From Candidatus Uhrbacteria bacterium (GTDB taxonomy: Bacteria; Patescibacteriota; Patescibacteriia; 2-12-FULL-60-25): a stretch of DNA of 33,912 nucleotides. Below, one piece after another: positions 3,390 through 22,554 of the stretch. The translations under genes and the position numbers were made by a program. The stretch covers positions 1 through 33,912 of the forward strand of contig CAIXDN010000052.1 of assembly GCA_903918235.1 (NCBI GenBank), read 5' to 3'. The notes below the pieces were generated by a model. That model had not been told where the DNA came from. It did no database searches and saw nothing but the letters and a program-made list of their open reading frames with translations. Each line of letters starts with the position of its first letter. Position 1 is the stretch's first letter.

Positions 3390-6300
3390 TTAAGCTGGGG
3401 ATAATTTGTGAGCAACCCTGCTAAGAGCAATGTGCTTATCAACGACCGCTTCTTTCACCGCAAACAAATTAATATCCTCTGTTTTAAACCGCTCAAATCC
3501 CGGCTTCTCCGCAGTCACAAAGTACATGCTCTTCGCAGCAAAGAAACCATAGCGCCCCTTTGGAGTTGTAACCTGCGTTTCCAAAAGCTTATTAAACTTT
3601 TTATCAAAGATACGAACAACAACCGAGCCAAGTGGTTTTCTCGTAACTGCATCGTAAACAATGCCCCAACCCTTTGGTTTCTTTGGCAGTGCCAAGCGCC
3701 TAAACAAGAAATACGTACACACTTGAAACGCTACTAAACCTGCCAACATCCAGCTTGGCGATACAGCTAGCGCACCGATTGTAACAAAAACCCCAATCAA
3801 ACTAACAGCATGTTGCAGACGGCGCAAATAACGCTTCCACAATACAGAGCGAGGCGTTTCTTCCTTCATCGCAGGATCAATAGGGATATTGACCGCTAGG
3901 TTTACTTCATCCGTAATCTCGATATTTTCGCCATGATACAAATCAAGCAAATCCACATCTTCATGTTCATCTTTCAAATACTGGGTCGGAAACGCATATC
4001 CTGGCTTAACAACCTCAATACGATATAGCCCAGGCCTAACAAGAAAAGTAAATCGACCATTCATATCCGTGATACTTGTTTGTACAACAGCCCTGGTCTG
4101 CGCCTGCAATAAACGTACAACAACCAAATCCAGCGGAGCTTTTGACAGCGCATTATAAACAACACCCCATTTCTGACGTTTTTTTCTTCGGAAAAGAAGA
4201 ACGGGTTGTGTGATTAAAAAGCCAAGATAATTCAAAAGACTAAACAAAGAACCAGCTGTTGCAACGTTTGCGATCACAATAGCAGCAACGACAGGAGCCG
4301 AGACCGTCGCAACTTGCCGCGCCTGCTCCGATTGTAAAATCTCTATAATTGGCCCAAGAATAGGAATAGCTACTGAAACAGGAAGGATAATATCAATAGA
4401 AGCATAATTTTGTGTAACTTCAATCTCTTTTTCTTGCGTCACATAACCATCTTTAACAACCTCAATACGATACGAACCATTCTTAACTAAATATCCATAC
4501 GTTCCTTGCTCCGTCGTAACAATCGTATTCACCTGACTATACGGTGCCCCCTTCCACTCTTGCCACTGACCATCAACACGCTCAAATAAGCGCACAGTAG
4601 CATTTTTTACAGGCGATAAATCAGAAGCAACATCTTTTCTCTCAAGCACACGACTAGGCGAAATGGTTTCTATCGTACCAGGAGCATACGCAGAGCGTTC
4701 ATCCTCTAATTGCACTTGCACAGTAGCCTGTGTGCGCCCAGCATCATAAGAAGGCACAAATGTTGCTCCATAATAGGTACTTCCCGGTAATGGTGTCAGC
4801 GAATATACGGACGAGCCAACACGAATCATCGCGCTCTTAATCATCGCCGGAAGATCCAACGCAGAAACACGTACAAGCACCGACGTACCTTGTGGCACGC
4901 GAATAACACCAGCCGCATCAGGCTGAAGCGACAATAAGCCATTGTTTGCAGAATATTCAGGCTTAATCACAAAGCTCGATACACCAGGCTCAACCGGAGG
5001 CGTTGAAGTCACAACAGGAAACTCAACAGTTGGAACCGTAGAAGTACCTGAGCCACTCCCAACAGAAGGAACGACCGGAATCGTTGTTGTAGCCGCTATT
5101 CCACCTGATCCCACACCACCAGTAGGACCGCCAGACGGAGGTCTTGTCGGCGGTCTTATGACCGGAGGAACAACTGGAGGAGGCGGAACAACCGGAGGAG
5201 GTACAATCGCTATATGAACAGGCGTAGCATCCGCATTAGCTCCACTAGAAAAATTTCCGGAACGATCAAAAGCAAAATTCGTATAGTAATACTTCACGCC
5301 ATTAACAAGGCCCGTATCAATGAACGAGGTAGCACCTCCTTGATAAACGTCTCTCCCATCATCTGGCCTCATTGGGTAACCATCCATTCTCGCTCGTATT
5401 TTCACAAGAGAGAAATCTCGATCGCTTGGGTTTCTCCAGCTCAGACTATTTTGTGTATCTCCAGCGGTGGCTACAAAACGATAGACATTGGCAGGCGGAG
5501 TAACATCGCCAGTTGTCGTAAATGTATAATCAGCAGAAGCGCTTGTTAAGGAATCAATCGGCTCTGTAGAGCTCGCCTGAAAATGATAAAGGGTCGCAAT
5601 CGTTAATCCCGACAAAACCACAGAGTGACTCGTCACATTACCAGCACTAGACGCTTCCAAACCATAAACACCCGTCAAACCATAATGAACATGACTTGAT
5701 GCTGGTAATCGTGTACTCCAAGTAATAACCGCGCCATGATCCGTAATGGATGTTGCTCGAACATTAGAAATAACCGGCAATAAGCCGACAGCAACAGTAG
5801 TAAATACAATATCTGGACTATGTGAAACATTCCCCATCGCATCAATAGCCGATATCTTAAAATGAATCACCGTACCCATTGGAAGATCTATCAAAGAAAC
5901 AACATGACTTATTAAATAGGAAGAAATCGTTGTAGAGCCTAGTAAATAAGATGTATTCGTTCCCCAAACAAAATTACTTCGAGCCGCCTCATCTGTATCC
6001 CAAATAATATCAGCGGTAGAGGAGGTAATATTTAAGACCTGAATGTTTAAAATGGATGGAGCTATAACGTCTGAACTGCTTCCTCCCGGAGCCGGGACCG
6101 TAGCGGAAATTCCACCAGAAATGCCAACAGAATCATTTGTCTTAATCGGAACATCAATACCACCAACATCGCCAAAGGTTCCACCAATAGAAAGAGAAAT
6201 GCGACCGCCTCCTCCTGACGGATTGATAATCTGGCGTGAACCACCAACTACAGTTAAACCAATGCGAACATACACAAGATCCCCAGACGCGATCTCTCCA

Positions 6301-6680
6301 ATAACCGCATCCGTAGGAGCAATAAGCGTAATCTTTTGCCCTACGATATCCGCACCCCAAACTCCAGCAGCCGCAGCTCCGGCGATTGTTGGATTTGTTT
6401 CAAAGCCCGTAATAGCACCATGAAACAAACCAATATCAGCAGATGTAATTGAAGTGAGATCAAATCCAGACGGAAAATCAATGGTAATGGTATCTGTTGG
6501 TGCATCAACACCGCTAACAGTAATAAATCGAATCTCATGATCAGAAGCAGCACCAACGCTTTGCCTTGTCATAACATCACGACGACCCGTAAGAACATCA
6601 GCCTTTACACCAGTAAAGGGCAACATCGCAAACAACGCGGTGAAAACCGCGGCAAAAATACAAAAAGAGTGTCGTCTCAT
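3390..6680 (-). CDS. Large secreted/membrane protein: signal peptide, FN3-like domains, Pro-rich linker, three carboxypeptidase-regulatory-like (transthyretin-like) domains, C-terminal transmembrane segments
   Basis: 1096-aa ORF. N-terminal hydrophobic signal; FN3-like 'ISNVRATSITDHGAVITWSTRLPASSHVHYG'; repeated 'GxYGYLVKNGSYRIEVVKDGY' motifs; hydrophobic segments before RRKKRQKWG and around SLIGVFVTIGALAV. Confidence 0.85.
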   Translation of the reverse strand: MRRHSFCIFAAVFTALFAMLPFTGVKADVLTGRRDVMTRQSVGAASDHEIRFITVSGVDAPTDTITIDFPSGFDLTSITSADIGLFHGAITGFETNPTIAGAAAAGVWGADIVGQKITLIAPTDAVIGEIASGDLVYVRIGLTVVGGSRQIINPSGGGGRISLSIGGTFGDVGGIDVPIKTNDSVGISGGISATVPAPGGSSSDVIAPSILNIQVLNITSSTADIIWDTDEAARSNFVWGTNTSYLLGSTTISSYLISHVVSLIDLPMGTVIHFKISAIDAMGNVSHSPDIVFTTVAVGLLPVISNVRATSITDHGAVITWSTRLPASSHVHYGLTGVYGLEASSAGNVTSHSVVLSGLTIATLYHFQASSTEPIDSLTSASADYTFTTTGDVTPPANVYRFVATAGDTQNSLSWRNPSDRDFSLVKIRARMDGYPMRPDDGRDVYQGGATSFIDTGLVNGVKYYYTNFAFDRSGNFSSGANADATPVHIAIVPPPVVPPPPVVPPVIRPPTRPPSGGPTGGVGSGGIAATTTIPVVPSVGSGSGTSTVPTVEFPVVTSTPPVEPGVSSFVIKPEYSANNGLLSLQPDAAGVIRVPQGTSVLVRVSALDLPAMIKSAMIRVGSSVYSLTPLPGSTYYGATFVPSYDAGRTQATVQVQLEDERSAYAPGTIETISPSRVLERKDVASDLSPVKNATVRLFERVDGQWQEWKGAPYSQVNTIVTTEQGTYGYLVKNGSYRIEVVKDGYVTQEKEIEVTQNYASIDIILPVSVAIPILGPIIEILQSEQARQVATVSAPVVAAIVIANVATAGSLFSLLNYLGFLITQPVLLFRRKKRQKWGVVYNALSKAPLDLVVVRLLQAQTRAVVQTSITDMNGRFTFLVRPGLYRIEVVKPGYAFPTQYLKDEHEDVDLLDLYHGENIEITDEVNLAVNIPIDPAMKEETPRSVLWKRYLRRLQHAVSLIGVFVTIGALAVSPSWMLAGLVAFQVCTYFLFRRLALPKKPKGWGIVYDAVTRKPLGSVVVRIFDKKFNKLLETQVTTPKGRYGFFAAKSMYFVTAEKPGFERFKTEDINLFAVKEAVVDKHIALSRVAHKLSPA

Positions 6681-6746
6681 ACAAGAGAAATCATCCTCAG
6701 CAGCCGGCCTCGCGTCTAAAGCAAGGTCGATGGCCGAAAAATCTTC

Positions 6747-7631
6747 TCAACCCAATTGCCTCAATGCTCTACGACCAAAAAGAAGCAAAATCACAAATGA
6801 AATGAATCCACCAAAGACCAACAACATCATTTTCCAAGGCCAAATCTGAAAAGAAACAGTCGATTCTCCAACAGCTCCAACGCGTCCAGCGACACGGATA
6901 TGCGCCTGGTACCATCCAAAACCACCATCATTCCAATCACTTGTATAAAGACGATTTGATCCTGGCAAAATTCTTCCTTTGGTCATGTTTCCATCAATGG
7001 TCGCCACATTTCTTCCAAACATATTCGTAAGATCAATCTGAATATCCGGACGAACATGAACGTTGCCTTGATTCTGCACATCTTCAATAAAACGAACAGG
7101 CGATGAACCCTGTGAAACCTGCTCAACACGCGCGCTCTGCAAAGACATACGCTCATTCAAATTTCCGTTAACCGTAGCAAAAACTAAAATACCAATACGT
7201 GGAATCGCGGAAACATTATTTCCAACAACAGAATCAATAGTTGTCTGCGTTAAGAAAATGGCTGCAAAATGACCGCCAGAAGAAGCATCATCTGGAACAC
7301 GTAATGAAACTGGAAGTTTTTTTGTTTCTCCAGGCCTTAATGTAATCGTCGGGGCATCTAAATATAACCAATCTGGCAACCCTGACGTATCACTTGATGA
7401 TAAAAAACGAACACCCCCACCTTCACCCTCCGATAAAAACTTCTGAATTGTCAACGCATACGTCATTGGTTTAGACTCATCATTGCTTACGACGATAGAA
7501 AAATCCTTCTGTGTACCAACATCAGCAGAAACCTCGATAATTGCTGGATTAACACTAATAGCTCTGACATGAAATCCAAAAAAAACAGACGTTGTAAGGA
7601 GCAAAGCGACAAAGAAAGAACGAAAACGCAT
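6747..7631 (-). CDS. DUF916/WxL-binding-like secreted protein with C-terminal transmembrane helix
   Basis: Signal peptide then 'ISVNPAIIEVSADVGTQKDFSIVVSNDESKPMTYALTIQKF', 'LRPGETKKLPVSLRVPDDASSGGHFAAIFL'; C-terminal TM MMLLVFGGFISFVILLLFGRR. Confidence 0.75.
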   Translation of the reverse strand: MRFRSFFVALLLTTSVFFGFHVRAISVNPAIIEVSADVGTQKDFSIVVSNDESKPMTYALTIQKFLSEGEGGGVRFLSSSDTSGLPDWLYLDAPTITLRPGETKKLPVSLRVPDDASSGGHFAAIFLTQTTIDSVVGNNVSAIPRIGILVFATVNGNLNERMSLQSARVEQVSQGSSPVRFIEDVQNQGNVHVRPDIQIDLTNMFGRNVATIDGNMTKGRILPGSNRLYTSDWNDGGFGWYQAHIRVAGRVGAVGESTVSFQIWPWKMMLLVFGGFISFVILLLFGRRALRQLG

Positions 7632-7632
7632 A

Positions 7633-8556
7633 TCAGTAATTTGCCGTTAGCGTGTAATAAACATTTTGCGAATAAGTACCTGCATTTGTTGTAGGAGAAA
7701 TAGACAACTTATAGACCATACCGATCTTATCAGACGTGGGTCCAGTAGCAGCACCGCTCGTCTGAACAATTCTTTGTGTTGCTGTTACAGCAAGATCCGT
7801 ACCAGAAGAAAAAGCCGTTGCCCCGGTTGTTTCCGCGCCATATTCTTCGCTACCCAAAGTAACAGAACCATCAGCCACGGAAGAAAATACTTGCGCCGTA
7901 GCATTTTGAAGCTCCTGATCAGCCAGTAAATACAACGTATAACCAGTAGAAACATTTGATAATACCGATGTTCCAACAATAGAAGTATAAGGAATATTGA
8001 TTACGATACTCCCAAAATTTATTGAATTTGAATTCAATAAAAAAACCTTATCATCACCGCCAGCAGGTACCGCATTCATAAGAGCACCATCTCCATCGAA
8101 TCGATCAACTGAAATAACGAGACCAACAATGCTAGAAATGCGTCCTACCGCAACATAGCGAGAAAAATCAGCATTTTCACTAACAGCAATCAAATTTCCA
8201 ACAGAAAACCCAGCAGCTGAACTTACGGTGACAGTATTACCAACAGCATTAAATCCCGTATAAGAACGACTCACAGAAGCAGAGCTCGCGCTTACTTGAT
8301 ACGTAAGCGTATCTACACCTTCCGGAGCTCGATAACCCGCAGAAAGCTGAAAATTTGCGCTTGTACTCGTACCGGAACCAGTGCCGCCAATAGAATCCGT
8401 TGAAGAAAAGTTTGTACTCGAAGAACGATCTAAACCACCAGAATTCACATTATCCCAAGGGATGAGAAAATGAGTGCTAGACATCGCCAAAACATTGTTC
8501 CCTGCAAACAACAGAGACAACATAACAAGAAGGAACAAAGGCTTGTTCAATGACAC
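7633..8556 (-). CDS. Secreted beta-rich protein, WxL-like C-terminus (hypothetical)
   Basis: Signal peptide MSLNKPLFLLVMLSLLFAGNNVLA; 'SSTNFSSTDSIGGTGSGTSTSANFQLSAGYR'; C-terminal 'INFGSIVIN...NAGTYSQNVYYTLTANY'. Confidence 0.75.
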   Translation of the reverse strand: MSLNKPLFLLVMLSLLFAGNNVLAMSSTHFLIPWDNVNSGGLDRSSSTNFSSTDSIGGTGSGTSTSANFQLSAGYRAPEGVDTLTYQVSASSASVSRSYTGFNAVGNTVTVSSAAGFSVGNLIAVSENADFSRYVAVGRISSIVGLVISVDRFDGDGALMNAVPAGGDDKVFLLNSNSINFGSIVINIPYTSIVGTSVLSNVSTGYTLYLLADQELQNATAQVFSSVADGSVTLGSEEYGAETTGATAFSSGTDLAVTATQRIVQTSGAATGPTSDKIGMVYKLSISPTTNAGTYSQNVYYTLTANY

Positions 8557-8862
8557 GTACCTATTTTATCAAAAATTTACAAAAGATTCAATCATGAAAT
8601 ATAAGCGTCGTAAAACATATATGACAATATATCCATTATTCGGCTAATGTTAGCTAAATAATGGATATGTAAATAAAATACTTTTATGAACAGTTATACA
8701 AAATTCAATAAAATTATAGTAAATATTTATCAAAAAAACATCATAGATCGCATAACCTTCAAAACATCTATTCCACATTTTGACATAATAAAAATCGAAA
8801 CACCTATAAATCATAAAAGATAAACGCTGAATCAAAAAACACATACTCATACATACAATATA

Positions 8863-8878
8863 TGTTTCACATGAAACA
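8863..8878. promoter_or_regulatory. parS: parS-like site 1 (TGTTTCACATGAAACA, one mismatch)
   Basis: 15/16 match to consensus parS TGTTTCACGTGAAACA. Confidence 0.8.
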
Positions 8879-9073
8879 TATATATTCACTCAATATATGC
8901 CAAGAACATCTAAAAGTAGCGAAATATTAGAAAAAATCATCGATATATCAAATTCAGTCACTAAATAGTATCGAAACAAAAAATTGTGAATATCGGATTC
9001 ATATATCAACCATTACAAGAAGAACATTTTGTCTAGAAACTCAAAATAACATATCTCTAAAACACGCTCTTTA

Positions 9074-9089
9074 TGTTTCACGTGAAACA
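9074..9089. promoter_or_regulatory. parS: parS site 2 (perfect TGTTTCACGTGAAACA)
   Basis: Exact match to consensus 16-bp ParB palindrome. Confidence 0.93.
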
Positions 9090-9175
9090 TAAATTTTAGT
9101 AAGCCGATATTCTATAAGCGATAATTTTAGCATGTACTAACAATTACATAATTATGTACCTAACTATCCAGCATT

Positions 9176-9191
9176 TGTTTCACGTGAAACA
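9176..9191. promoter_or_regulatory. parS: parS site 3 (perfect)
   Basis: Exact match to consensus 16-bp ParB palindrome. Confidence 0.93.
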
Positions 9192-9388
9192 AAACATTCT
9201 ACAATAATTAGAACGCAGCGCTTTAACAATTAAACTATTAACTATTAGATCGTAAACAAAAATATTTTTCGTATTAAAGCAATGCTTTCGGCACACTGAA
9301 ATAAATATATTTCTAAACAAATATTCTTTGCAGAAGGTACTAGACACTGCCTTAGCACTATGTGATTAAGACAAATAATATCCAGATT

Positions 9389-9404
9389 TGTTTCACGTGA
9401 AACA
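9389..9404. promoter_or_regulatory. parS: parS site 4 (perfect)
   Basis: Exact match; directly abuts the tRNA-Ala terminator hairpin. Confidence 0.93.
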
Positions 9405-9405
9405 A

Positions 9406-9432
9406 AAACATTCTGCAATTAGCAGAATGTTT
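9406..9432 (-). terminator. Intrinsic terminator downstream of tRNA-Ala
   Basis: 11-bp perfect stem AAACATTCTGC / GCAGAATGTTT with U-rich tail on the minus strand. Confidence 0.8.
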
Positions 9433-9435
9433 TCA

Positions 9436-9511
9436 TGGTGGACCAAAGGAGATTCGAACTCCTGACCTCTGCAATGCGAATGCAGCGCTCTACCAACTGA
9501 GCTATTGGCCC
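9436..9511 (-). tRNA. tRNA-Ala (anticodon CGC), CCA encoded
   Basis: GGGCCAATAGCTCAGTTGGTAGAGCGCTGCATTCGCATTGCAGAGGTCAGGAGTTCGAATCTCCTTTGGTCCACCA folds as a cloverleaf; G3:U70 wobble pair (Ala identity) present. Confidence 0.96.
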
Positions 9512-9599
9512 AAATAAGTAAAATATTTTTCTTATTTAAGCGATTGTCTTCTCACTATAGTTCAATAACGATGATTGTAGTCATGCTTGAAGCTAAGAA

Positions 9600-9615
9600 T
9601 GTTTCACGTGAAACA
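9600..9615. promoter_or_regulatory. parS: parS site 5 (perfect)
   Basis: Exact match; lies between the two tRNA genes. Confidence 0.93.
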
Positions 9616-9636
9616 AATTTACTATAAATATTTCTC

Positions 9637-9711
9637 TGGTGCCTCCACGAGGAATTGAACCTCGATCTAGGGCTTAGGAGTCCCTCGTTCTATCCGTTAA
9701 ACTATAGAAGC
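9637..9711 (-). tRNA. tRNA-Arg (anticodon CCT), CCA encoded
   Basis: GCTTCTATAGTTTAACGGATAGAACGAGGGACTCCTAAGCCCTAGATCGAGGTTCAATTCCTCGTGGAGGCACCA; anticodon loop CTCCTAA. Confidence 0.93.
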
Positions 9712-9856
9712 TTAAGTGTCGTAAAATATTTAATGTACAATCATCATTTCTCGAGAGGGAAGTGACAGTAGTATATTTTTAATATGGCTTCAAGTCAACG
9801 TATGAACATAGCGCTTGACTTATTCCTTGGCTAAGGCTAATCTTAGGCAACTTCAT

Positions 9857-10120
9857 ATGCCAAATAAGCATGCCGCAGTAAAAGACCTCCGCAAGAATGA
9901 GCGCCGCGCTCTTCGTAACGCACGTCTTAAGACACACGTTAAGTCGCTTTCGAAGCAACTTAAAGAAGTTGCAAAAGCCGGAAGCAAAACCGAGGTTGTT
10001 GAAGCAGCCCGCAAGCTTCAACAAGCATCAGCAAAAGCAGCAAAAAATCACGTTCTACATTTTAACAAAACACGTAGAATGACCTCCGCAGCCAGCAAAC
10101 TAGTAACAGCGACAAAGTAA
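9857..10120 (+). CDS. rpsT: 30S ribosomal protein S20 (start moved inside the ORF-track call)
   Basis: MPNKHAAVKDLRKNERRALRNARLKTHVK... typical S20; ATG at 9857 preferred over 9815. Confidence 0.92.
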   Translation: MPNKHAAVKDLRKNERRALRNARLKTHVKSLSKQLKEVAKAGSKTEVVEAARKLQQASAKAAKNHVLHFNKTRRMTSAASKLVTATK

Positions 10121-20768: not shown

Positions 20769-21041
20769 ATTTTCTGTCTGATGTTTACACTCCGTGATGT
20801 CTTAATCAAGTTTAAATATTTACAGTAGTAACAATAGGGTATGTGTACAAAAGGGATAACGTAAAACGTGGCTAATATTAGCCACGTTTTACGTCTATTC
20901 TATCCACTGTTGACGGGGACATCATCTGTTCAATACGTGGATGAAATGTCTGTTCTGGTCTTGTTCTGAACCTTATCCAAGGGTTATACAGAGTTTTATC
21001 CCCACCTATCCACAGTTTTATCCACAGGTGATTTTGCTAAC
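20769..21041. promoter_or_regulatory. oriC: Candidate replication origin (oriC) between dnaA and dnaN
   Basis: Same-orientation DnaA-box-like 9-mers at 20973 TTATCCAAG, 20984 TTATACAGA, 20996 TTATCCCCA, 21006 CTATCCACA and 21018 TTATCCACA (perfect), spaced 10-12 bp; AT-rich stretch ~20800-20835; 36-bp palindrome at 20859. Confidence 0.7.
20859..20894. repeat. Perfect 36-bp palindrome in candidate oriC
   Basis: ACGTAAAACGTGGCTAATATTAGCCACGTTTTACGT is its own reverse complement. Confidence 0.95.
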
Positions 21042-22430
21042 CTATGCACTGTGGCTATAGAGGCGTTCTCTAAGCGTTGTAAGATCGTGCTTAAGCTGAT
21101 CATCGTCTTTAAGCATTTCATTGATTTTGTTGCAGGCGTGCATGGCGGTCGTATGATCTCTTCCTCCAACCTGATCACCGATAGAAGGATAAGAACATTT
21201 TGACTCTTCGCGTAGCAAATACATGGCAATTTGTCTCGGGAAAGCAAGGCGTCGCTCACGACTCTTGCCAAGAATATCATCCATAGAGATGTCAAAATAG
21301 GTGATGACGACCTCTAAAAGAAGTCTTGGAGTAATATTGCGCTTGGTGATAGTAGGGGAAAGACTTTGCAAAATTGGCTGAACGGTAAGAAGTGTTGGTG
21401 GAACGTTTTTGAATTGATGATAAGCGATGATTTTATTCATCGCGCCTTCTAATTCGCGTACATTTGACTGGATAGCGCCAGCAATCGCATGAAAGATCTC
21501 TGTAGATAAAGCATAATTTTTATCTCGAGCCTTTGCTTGAAGAATAGCGACGCGTGTCTCAAAATCTGGTTTAGAAATATCAACCATCATTCCCCACTCA
21601 AAACGTGACTGAAGTCGACTTTCTAATGTCTGAATATCTTTTGGAGGTCGGTCAGAGGCAATAACAATCTGCTTATCTTTTTGATGCAAAGCGTTAAACG
21701 TATGAAAAAACTCCTCTTGTGTACCTTCTTTTCCAGTAAGGAATTGGATATCATCAATTAAAAGGACGTCTACCAAGCGATATTTGTTATTAAACTCATT
21801 CATCCTCCCGCCACGCACGGATTGAATAAACTCATTGGTAAAACTTTCGCAAGTGACATATCGGATTTTTGCCTCAGGAACTCTTGCTTGAATATGATGG
21901 CCAATCGCATGAAGAAGGTGTGTTTTACCCATTCCAGCGCTCCCATGGATAAAAAGTGGGTTATAGACGTCGCCTTTTGCGGCCACGGCTTGGCTGGCCG
22001 CATGAGCAAGTTCATTGCCTTTTCCTACGATAAACGTGCTAAACGTGTAGCGTGGATTAAGACCAACATCGCTTATAGGCGCAATAGGTTTAGATGGCGC
22101 GTCAAAATGCGTAGAGTCCTGGGAGACGGACGTCTCAGAATAAGAAGGTTGAACAGGCTCGATCTGTAGGACGGTTGTATTTTTTACCTCGATATTATAA
22201 ACAACTTCTCGTATAGGAAGGCTGGAAGCATTTCTAAGAGCTTTAACGATTTGGTCGTTATACTTCTTCTCCATCCAGGTCTTCGTAAAGGTATTTGGAA
22301 CAGCAACGACGGCCTTTATGCCCTCTACACTGATAAGATAAGTGTTTTTAAACCAGGTCGTAAAATTTGCTTTAGAGAGACTCAATTCGAGCTCTCCGAG
22401 TACCGCTTGCCAAAGGGCTTGCTGATCCAT
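21042..22430 (-). CDS. dnaA: Chromosomal replication initiator DnaA
   Basis: NPRYTFSTFIVGKGNELAHAASQAV, GSAGMGKTHLLHAIGHH, LLIDDIQFLTGKEGTQEEFFHTFN, C-terminal GGRDHTTAMHACNKI. ORF track starts at 22448; MDQQALWQAVL at 22430 is the likelier start. Confidence 0.96.
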   Translation of the reverse strand: MDQQALWQAVLGELELSLSKANFTTWFKNTYLISVEGIKAVVAVPNTFTKTWMEKKYNDQIVKALRNASSLPIREVVYNIEVKNTTVLQIEPVQPSYSETSVSQDSTHFDAPSKPIAPISDVGLNPRYTFSTFIVGKGNELAHAASQAVAAKGDVYNPLFIHGSAGMGKTHLLHAIGHHIQARVPEAKIRYVTCESFTNEFIQSVRGGRMNEFNNKYRLVDVLLIDDIQFLTGKEGTQEEFFHTFNALHQKDKQIVIASDRPPKDIQTLESRLQSRFEWGMMVDISKPDFETRVAILQAKARDKNYALSTEIFHAIAGAIQSNVRELEGAMNKIIAYHQFKNVPPTLLTVQPILQSLSPTITKRNITPRLLLEVVITYFDISMDDILGKSRERRLAFPRQIAMYLLREESKCSYPSIGDQVGGRDHTTAMHACNKINEMLKDDDQLKHDLTTLRERLYSHSA

Positions 22431-22554
22431 AAAAATTAAGACGATCATTCCAACTGTGCATAACTATGTCAAACCTGAGGACTAAAACCAAGCGAAAGGG
22501 TTAATACTTGCCAATTTTTGCGAAATACTATATCTTACTCGGGTCTCCAATTAT

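Follow-up and report, generated by a model that had tools for sequence, protein, structure and literature searches.

A clustered parS array interleaved with two tRNA genes near the candidate origin of a Candidatus Uhrbacteria-like Patescibacterium

The closest described counterparts of the locus analysed here are the chromosomal ParABS systems of Bacillus subtilis and Caulobacter, with which it shares the same 16-bp parS site (TGTTTCACGTGAAACA), an operon of ParA and ParB, the order of the ParB domains, the residues that read parS, sites close to the origin and an SMC protein. Membership of this class can be judged by consensus parS sites, their proximity to the origin, a ParA-type Walker ATPase encoded with ParB, CTPase, HTH and C-terminal dimerisation domains in ParB together with its parS-reading residues, and ParB binding to parS and spreading from it; a position of parAB near the origin is common, not obligatory and not decisive. 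Pseudomonas aeruginosa is alike in that several sites, parS1-4, are clustered near oriC, and differs in its site, TGTTCCACGTGGAACA, and in having parAB ~7 kb from oriC; one parS site suffices there for segregation (PMC4368675). Redundancy is therefore expected in the Uhrbacteria array too. In Caulobacter ParB, positions 173, 179, 184 and 201 set the choice between parS and NBS, and the contacts Q162, G170, K171, S172, N178 and R204 are common to both; variants specific for parS require R173 and work best with G at 201, where C, S and T are also allowed, while most residues can stand at 179 and any residue at 184 (PMC7383237). Almost nothing has been described of how Patescibacteria segregate their chromosomes, and the literature searched contained no paper combining parS, ParB and Patescibacteria. 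The cluster reported here is almost certainly a typical ParABS centromere and, as a described example, new in Uhrbacteria.

The parS array and its surroundings

The window, by which we mean the whole stretch of 33,912 nt that was analysed, contains the following features:

7633-8556, minus strand, p307, a conserved gene on the side of the array away from the origin
8863-8878, no strand assigned, parS site 1, TGTTTCACATGAAACA, with a central CA variant
9074-9089, no strand assigned, parS site 2, TGTTTCACGTGAAACA, a perfect palindrome
9176-9191, no strand assigned, parS site 3, TGTTTCACGTGAAACA, a perfect palindrome
9389-9404, no strand assigned, parS site 4, TGTTTCACGTGAAACA, a perfect palindrome
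9436-9511, minus strand, tRNA-Ala(CGC), a conserved neighbour of the array
9600-9615, no strand assigned, parS site 5, TGTTTCACGTGAAACA, a perfect palindrome
9637-9711, minus strand, tRNA-Arg(CCT), a conserved neighbour of the array
9857-10120, plus strand, rpsT (S20), a conserved gene on the origin side of the array
20985-21026, plus strand, DnaA-box-like repeats between dnaA and dnaN, the candidate oriC
21042-22448, minus strand, dnaA

The array, 8863-9615, measures 753 bp, with the sites spaced in order by 211, 102, 213 and 211 bp, which agrees with the sequence-only reading that had first reported four exact sites and one variant within ~750 bp. That reading had also noticed no further copy in the window, and none was found at up to three mismatches; at the same threshold dinucleotide-shuffled versions of the window gave a mean of 0.18 matches and a maximum of 1. 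We then have these five sites as the only matches at up to two mismatches in the whole genome, a draft of 874,397 bases in 81 contigs that is 89% complete, so that extra sites are possible in the missing sequence; a reversed-pattern control across the same 874-kb draft gave 0 matches. The proposed check for random scatter of the 16-mer thus placed all five copies of the genome within the origin-proximal cluster. Site 5 lies 11.4 kb from the DnaA-box repeats, consistent with the ~11-12 kb originally estimated. A Rayleigh test over 60 gaps gave no sign of helical phasing in the spacing (p about 0.4-0.8). Between dnaA and dnaN, next to the DnaA-box repeats, there is also a perfect 36-bp inverted repeat at 20859-20894 (18-nt arms, no loop).

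The array occupies an AT-rich non-coding stretch, 8557-9856. This gap had been described as large, which is right as to its size (1.3 kb), but it is not empty: the two minus-strand tRNA genes lie among the parS sites, an interleaving that sets the Uhrbacteria array apart from those of B. subtilis and Caulobacter. A terminator-like hairpin at 9405-9433 directly adjoins site 4 and is separate from the palindrome. The sole low-E Rfam match, to a CRISPR repeat at 9026-9063, was under the gathering score and was judged to be chance. The product of p307 matches the CPR pilus protein PamT weakly, under the cut-off. Three genes with secreted-looking products of 1096, 294 and 307 aa, the last of them with this weak resemblance to PamT, lie in a row at 3390-8556, and their synteny is kept in the family.

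ParB, its partners and its reading residues

Whether the genome has a parB homologue had been set as a check on the sites. A single ParB_N protein is encoded, on contig C19 (E 1e-32 to PF02195), adjoining parA:

L007:5362-7037, parAB
L007:5362-6252, parB

The two genes overlap by 4 bases. ParB_N (CTPase), HTH_ParB and ParB_C (dimerisation) are all over the Pfam cut-off in ParB, which also contains the GERRLRA box, and the ParA encoded with it is a Walker-type ATPase with KGGVGKTT in its sequence. In a phmmer comparison ParB matched a solved ParB at 2.7e-51; the structure entry is named just 'Chromosome-partitioning protein ParB', and we take 6T1F/7BM8 to be the Caulobacter protein. The closest ParB among named genomes, at 83% identity, is from a Ca. 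Uhrbacteria MAG. An SMC protein, with an SMC_N match over the cut-off, is encoded on contig C81. Both parAB and the SMC gene are on contigs other than that of the array, and contig C19 contains no parS; since parAB is not beside parS, the cognate pairing rests on this ParB being the sole ParB_N protein found. On its contig parAB is flanked by relA/spoT-like and KefB-like transporter genes (named by eye).

Wherever a Paceibacteria assembly has parB and dnaA on a single contig, which holds for 11 of them, the two genes are at least 160 kb apart: 164-378 kb in ten (G031, G054, G063, G073, G081, G096, G097, G112, G116 and G131), whereas in G046 they are separated by 747 kb as measured on the contig, a distance that may be shorter around the circle. 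Uhrbacteria thus differ from B. subtilis and Caulobacter in having parAB far from dnaA and parS, and parAB is not near the origin as it is in P. aeruginosa. ParA and ParB act in trans, so this separation need not alter the mechanism.

Read off the alignment, positions 173, 179, 184 and 201 of this ParB are R, I, Q and S, and all six of the shared contacts are kept. The protein therefore has parS-reading residues, Ser at 201 being reported as compatible with parS specificity, although it departs here from the Gly of B. subtilis and Caulobacter. Ser201-Asn202 replaces Gly-His in 14 of the 14 family ParBs examined (our own and 13 others, counted by eye); elsewhere in the class position 201 is Gly in 12, Ser in 4 and Thr in 1 (17 proteins from other families, by eye). 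Perfect parS sites occur in family members whose ParB has Ser201, G011 and G002 among them, and thus Ser201 accompanies ordinary parS in nature. The family is a natural test of Ser at this position.

Conservation and interpretation of the array

Nine other members of the family (G001, G002, G007, G011, G013, G015, G027, G031 and G033) have an array of 3-10 sites at the same place, in the conserved order p307-array-tRNA-Ala(CGC)-tRNA-Arg(CCT)-holA-polA, with the sites around the tRNAs. rpsT gave tblastn matches in 7 of these nine (some contigs end early), and in G030 p307 and the array are followed by the contig end. Array density and gap are therefore the family norm, and the idea that such dense clustering is unusual did not survive the comparison. 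Measured in ten genomes of the family, of which the window is one, the array is 7.7-18.9 kb from dnaA (8-19 kb in round figures). Three members of another family (G054, G095 and G124) keep parS beside tRNA-Ala/tRNA-Arg/polA. A tRNA-anchored centromere conserved in this way provides an origin marker for fragmented assemblies.

Across related genomes ParB_N was found in 137 of 144, and parS at up to one mismatch in 56, a difference explained in part by the use of the Pseudomonas-type site TGTTCCACGTGGAACA in several other Paceibacteria families. A scan with GTTNCACGTGNAAC gave no match in 22 of 44 genomes, picked mostly for their absence of canonical parS. Around dnaA, no clustered parS-like palindromes were seen in four of these 22, all of them ParB-bearing, in which the ParB sites may be single, far from dnaA or absent from the assembly. 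Near-complete Paceibacteria with a good ParB and with neither the canonical nor the Pseudomonas-type parS include G044, G045, G049, G053, G063, G097 and G118, among others.

Could the palindromes have nothing to do with segregation, and serve instead as transcription-factor operators, or to terminate the transcripts of the tRNA pair or of the neighbouring pilus-like genes? They are intergenic, between the tRNA genes and p307, and site 4 adjoins the terminator-like hairpin. That hairpin, however, is distinct from the palindrome, the sites exactly match the bacterial parS consensus, family members have 3-10 copies at variable spacing, the genome has zero copies elsewhere, and its ParB has the residues that read parS, all of which make this explanation very improbable. 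Still less probable is that the sites are part of a mobile element or an integrated plasmid. Integration often targets tRNA genes, and two of them adjoin the array, but the neighbours rpsT, holA, polA, dnaN and dnaA are core genes whose order is conserved across the family, the surroundings of the array showed neither parAB nor an integrase nor attachment repeats, and the arrays at the same place in relatives refute this explanation.

We give equally little credence to Noc-type or other nucleoid-occlusion sites in place of a centromere. The first NCBIfam model for ParB is indeed Noc TIGR04285, with 217.5 bits, under the cut-off of 315; yet R173 is kept, in place of the Noc-type Q173/R201 pair, and the NBS (ATTTCCCGGGAAAT) is absent genome-wide at up to one mismatch and has one match at two mismatches, as does the control. 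Moreover, NBS occur dispersed along the chromosome (PMC7383237), whereas the sites here are clustered.

With high confidence, we read the five palindromes as the ordinary chromosomal ParABS centromere of a Ca. Uhrbacteria-like Patescibacterium, in a partly tandem-duplicated array. The cluster almost certainly works like a standard ParABS segregation system, with a ParB-parS binding that we infer. Following the ParABS literature, ParB, encoded elsewhere with ParA, would bind each parS through its HTH domain, close as a CTP-dependent clamp and slide to adjacent DNA; the ParA ATPase would move the ParB-coated origin region, which probably also loads SMC. As to the earlier claim of an active ParABS system and likely centromere, the sites and the intact ParA-ParB pair support it, the words 'active' and 'centromere' being interpretation. 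The family-wide array position, the tandem duplication, the unlinked parAB and Ser201 together with canonical parS go beyond that reading. We consider it rather unlikely that the Uhrbacteria form of ParABS is lineage-specific, that is, a tRNA-anchored parS array growing by parS-tRNA duplication, with parAB uncoupled from the origin and a ParB that uses Ser201-Asn202 in place of the usual Gly-His to read canonical parS, its specificity perhaps being wider or changed.

Growth of the array

Local alignment and collinear repeats revealed a putative remnant between sites 3 and 4:

9191-9283, minus strand, decayed copy of the tRNA-Ala unit (terminator-like piece 9191-9213, tRNA piece 9206-9239, upstream piece 9259-9283)

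The sequence that follows site 3 can be aligned to 9405-9599, which follows site 4 and contains tRNA-Ala, with a local score of 42, compared with a best score of 37 among 2000 dinucleotide shuffles, and three collinear repeats (D6, D3 and D4) tie the decayed copy to the site 4-tRNA-Ala unit. The simplest reading of this one decayed copy is that the array grew partly through tandem duplication: a unit of ~211-213 bp, consisting of parS and tRNA-Ala, would have been duplicated, after which the spare tRNA would have decayed and lost ~53 bases while its parS was retained. Sites 1 and 2 bear no trace of duplication; the equal 211-bp gap had made them a candidate duplicated unit, which was dropped for want of sequence similarity. 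No tRNA remnants were found in the arrays of relatives, so nothing indicates that the duplication is general, and the remnant here gave no tRNA match in Rfam even at E 5. With no remnant in relatives, and Rfam blind to this one, the duplication looks like a lineage-specific event. The decayed tRNA copy would represent one route by which a bacterial centromere array gains sites.
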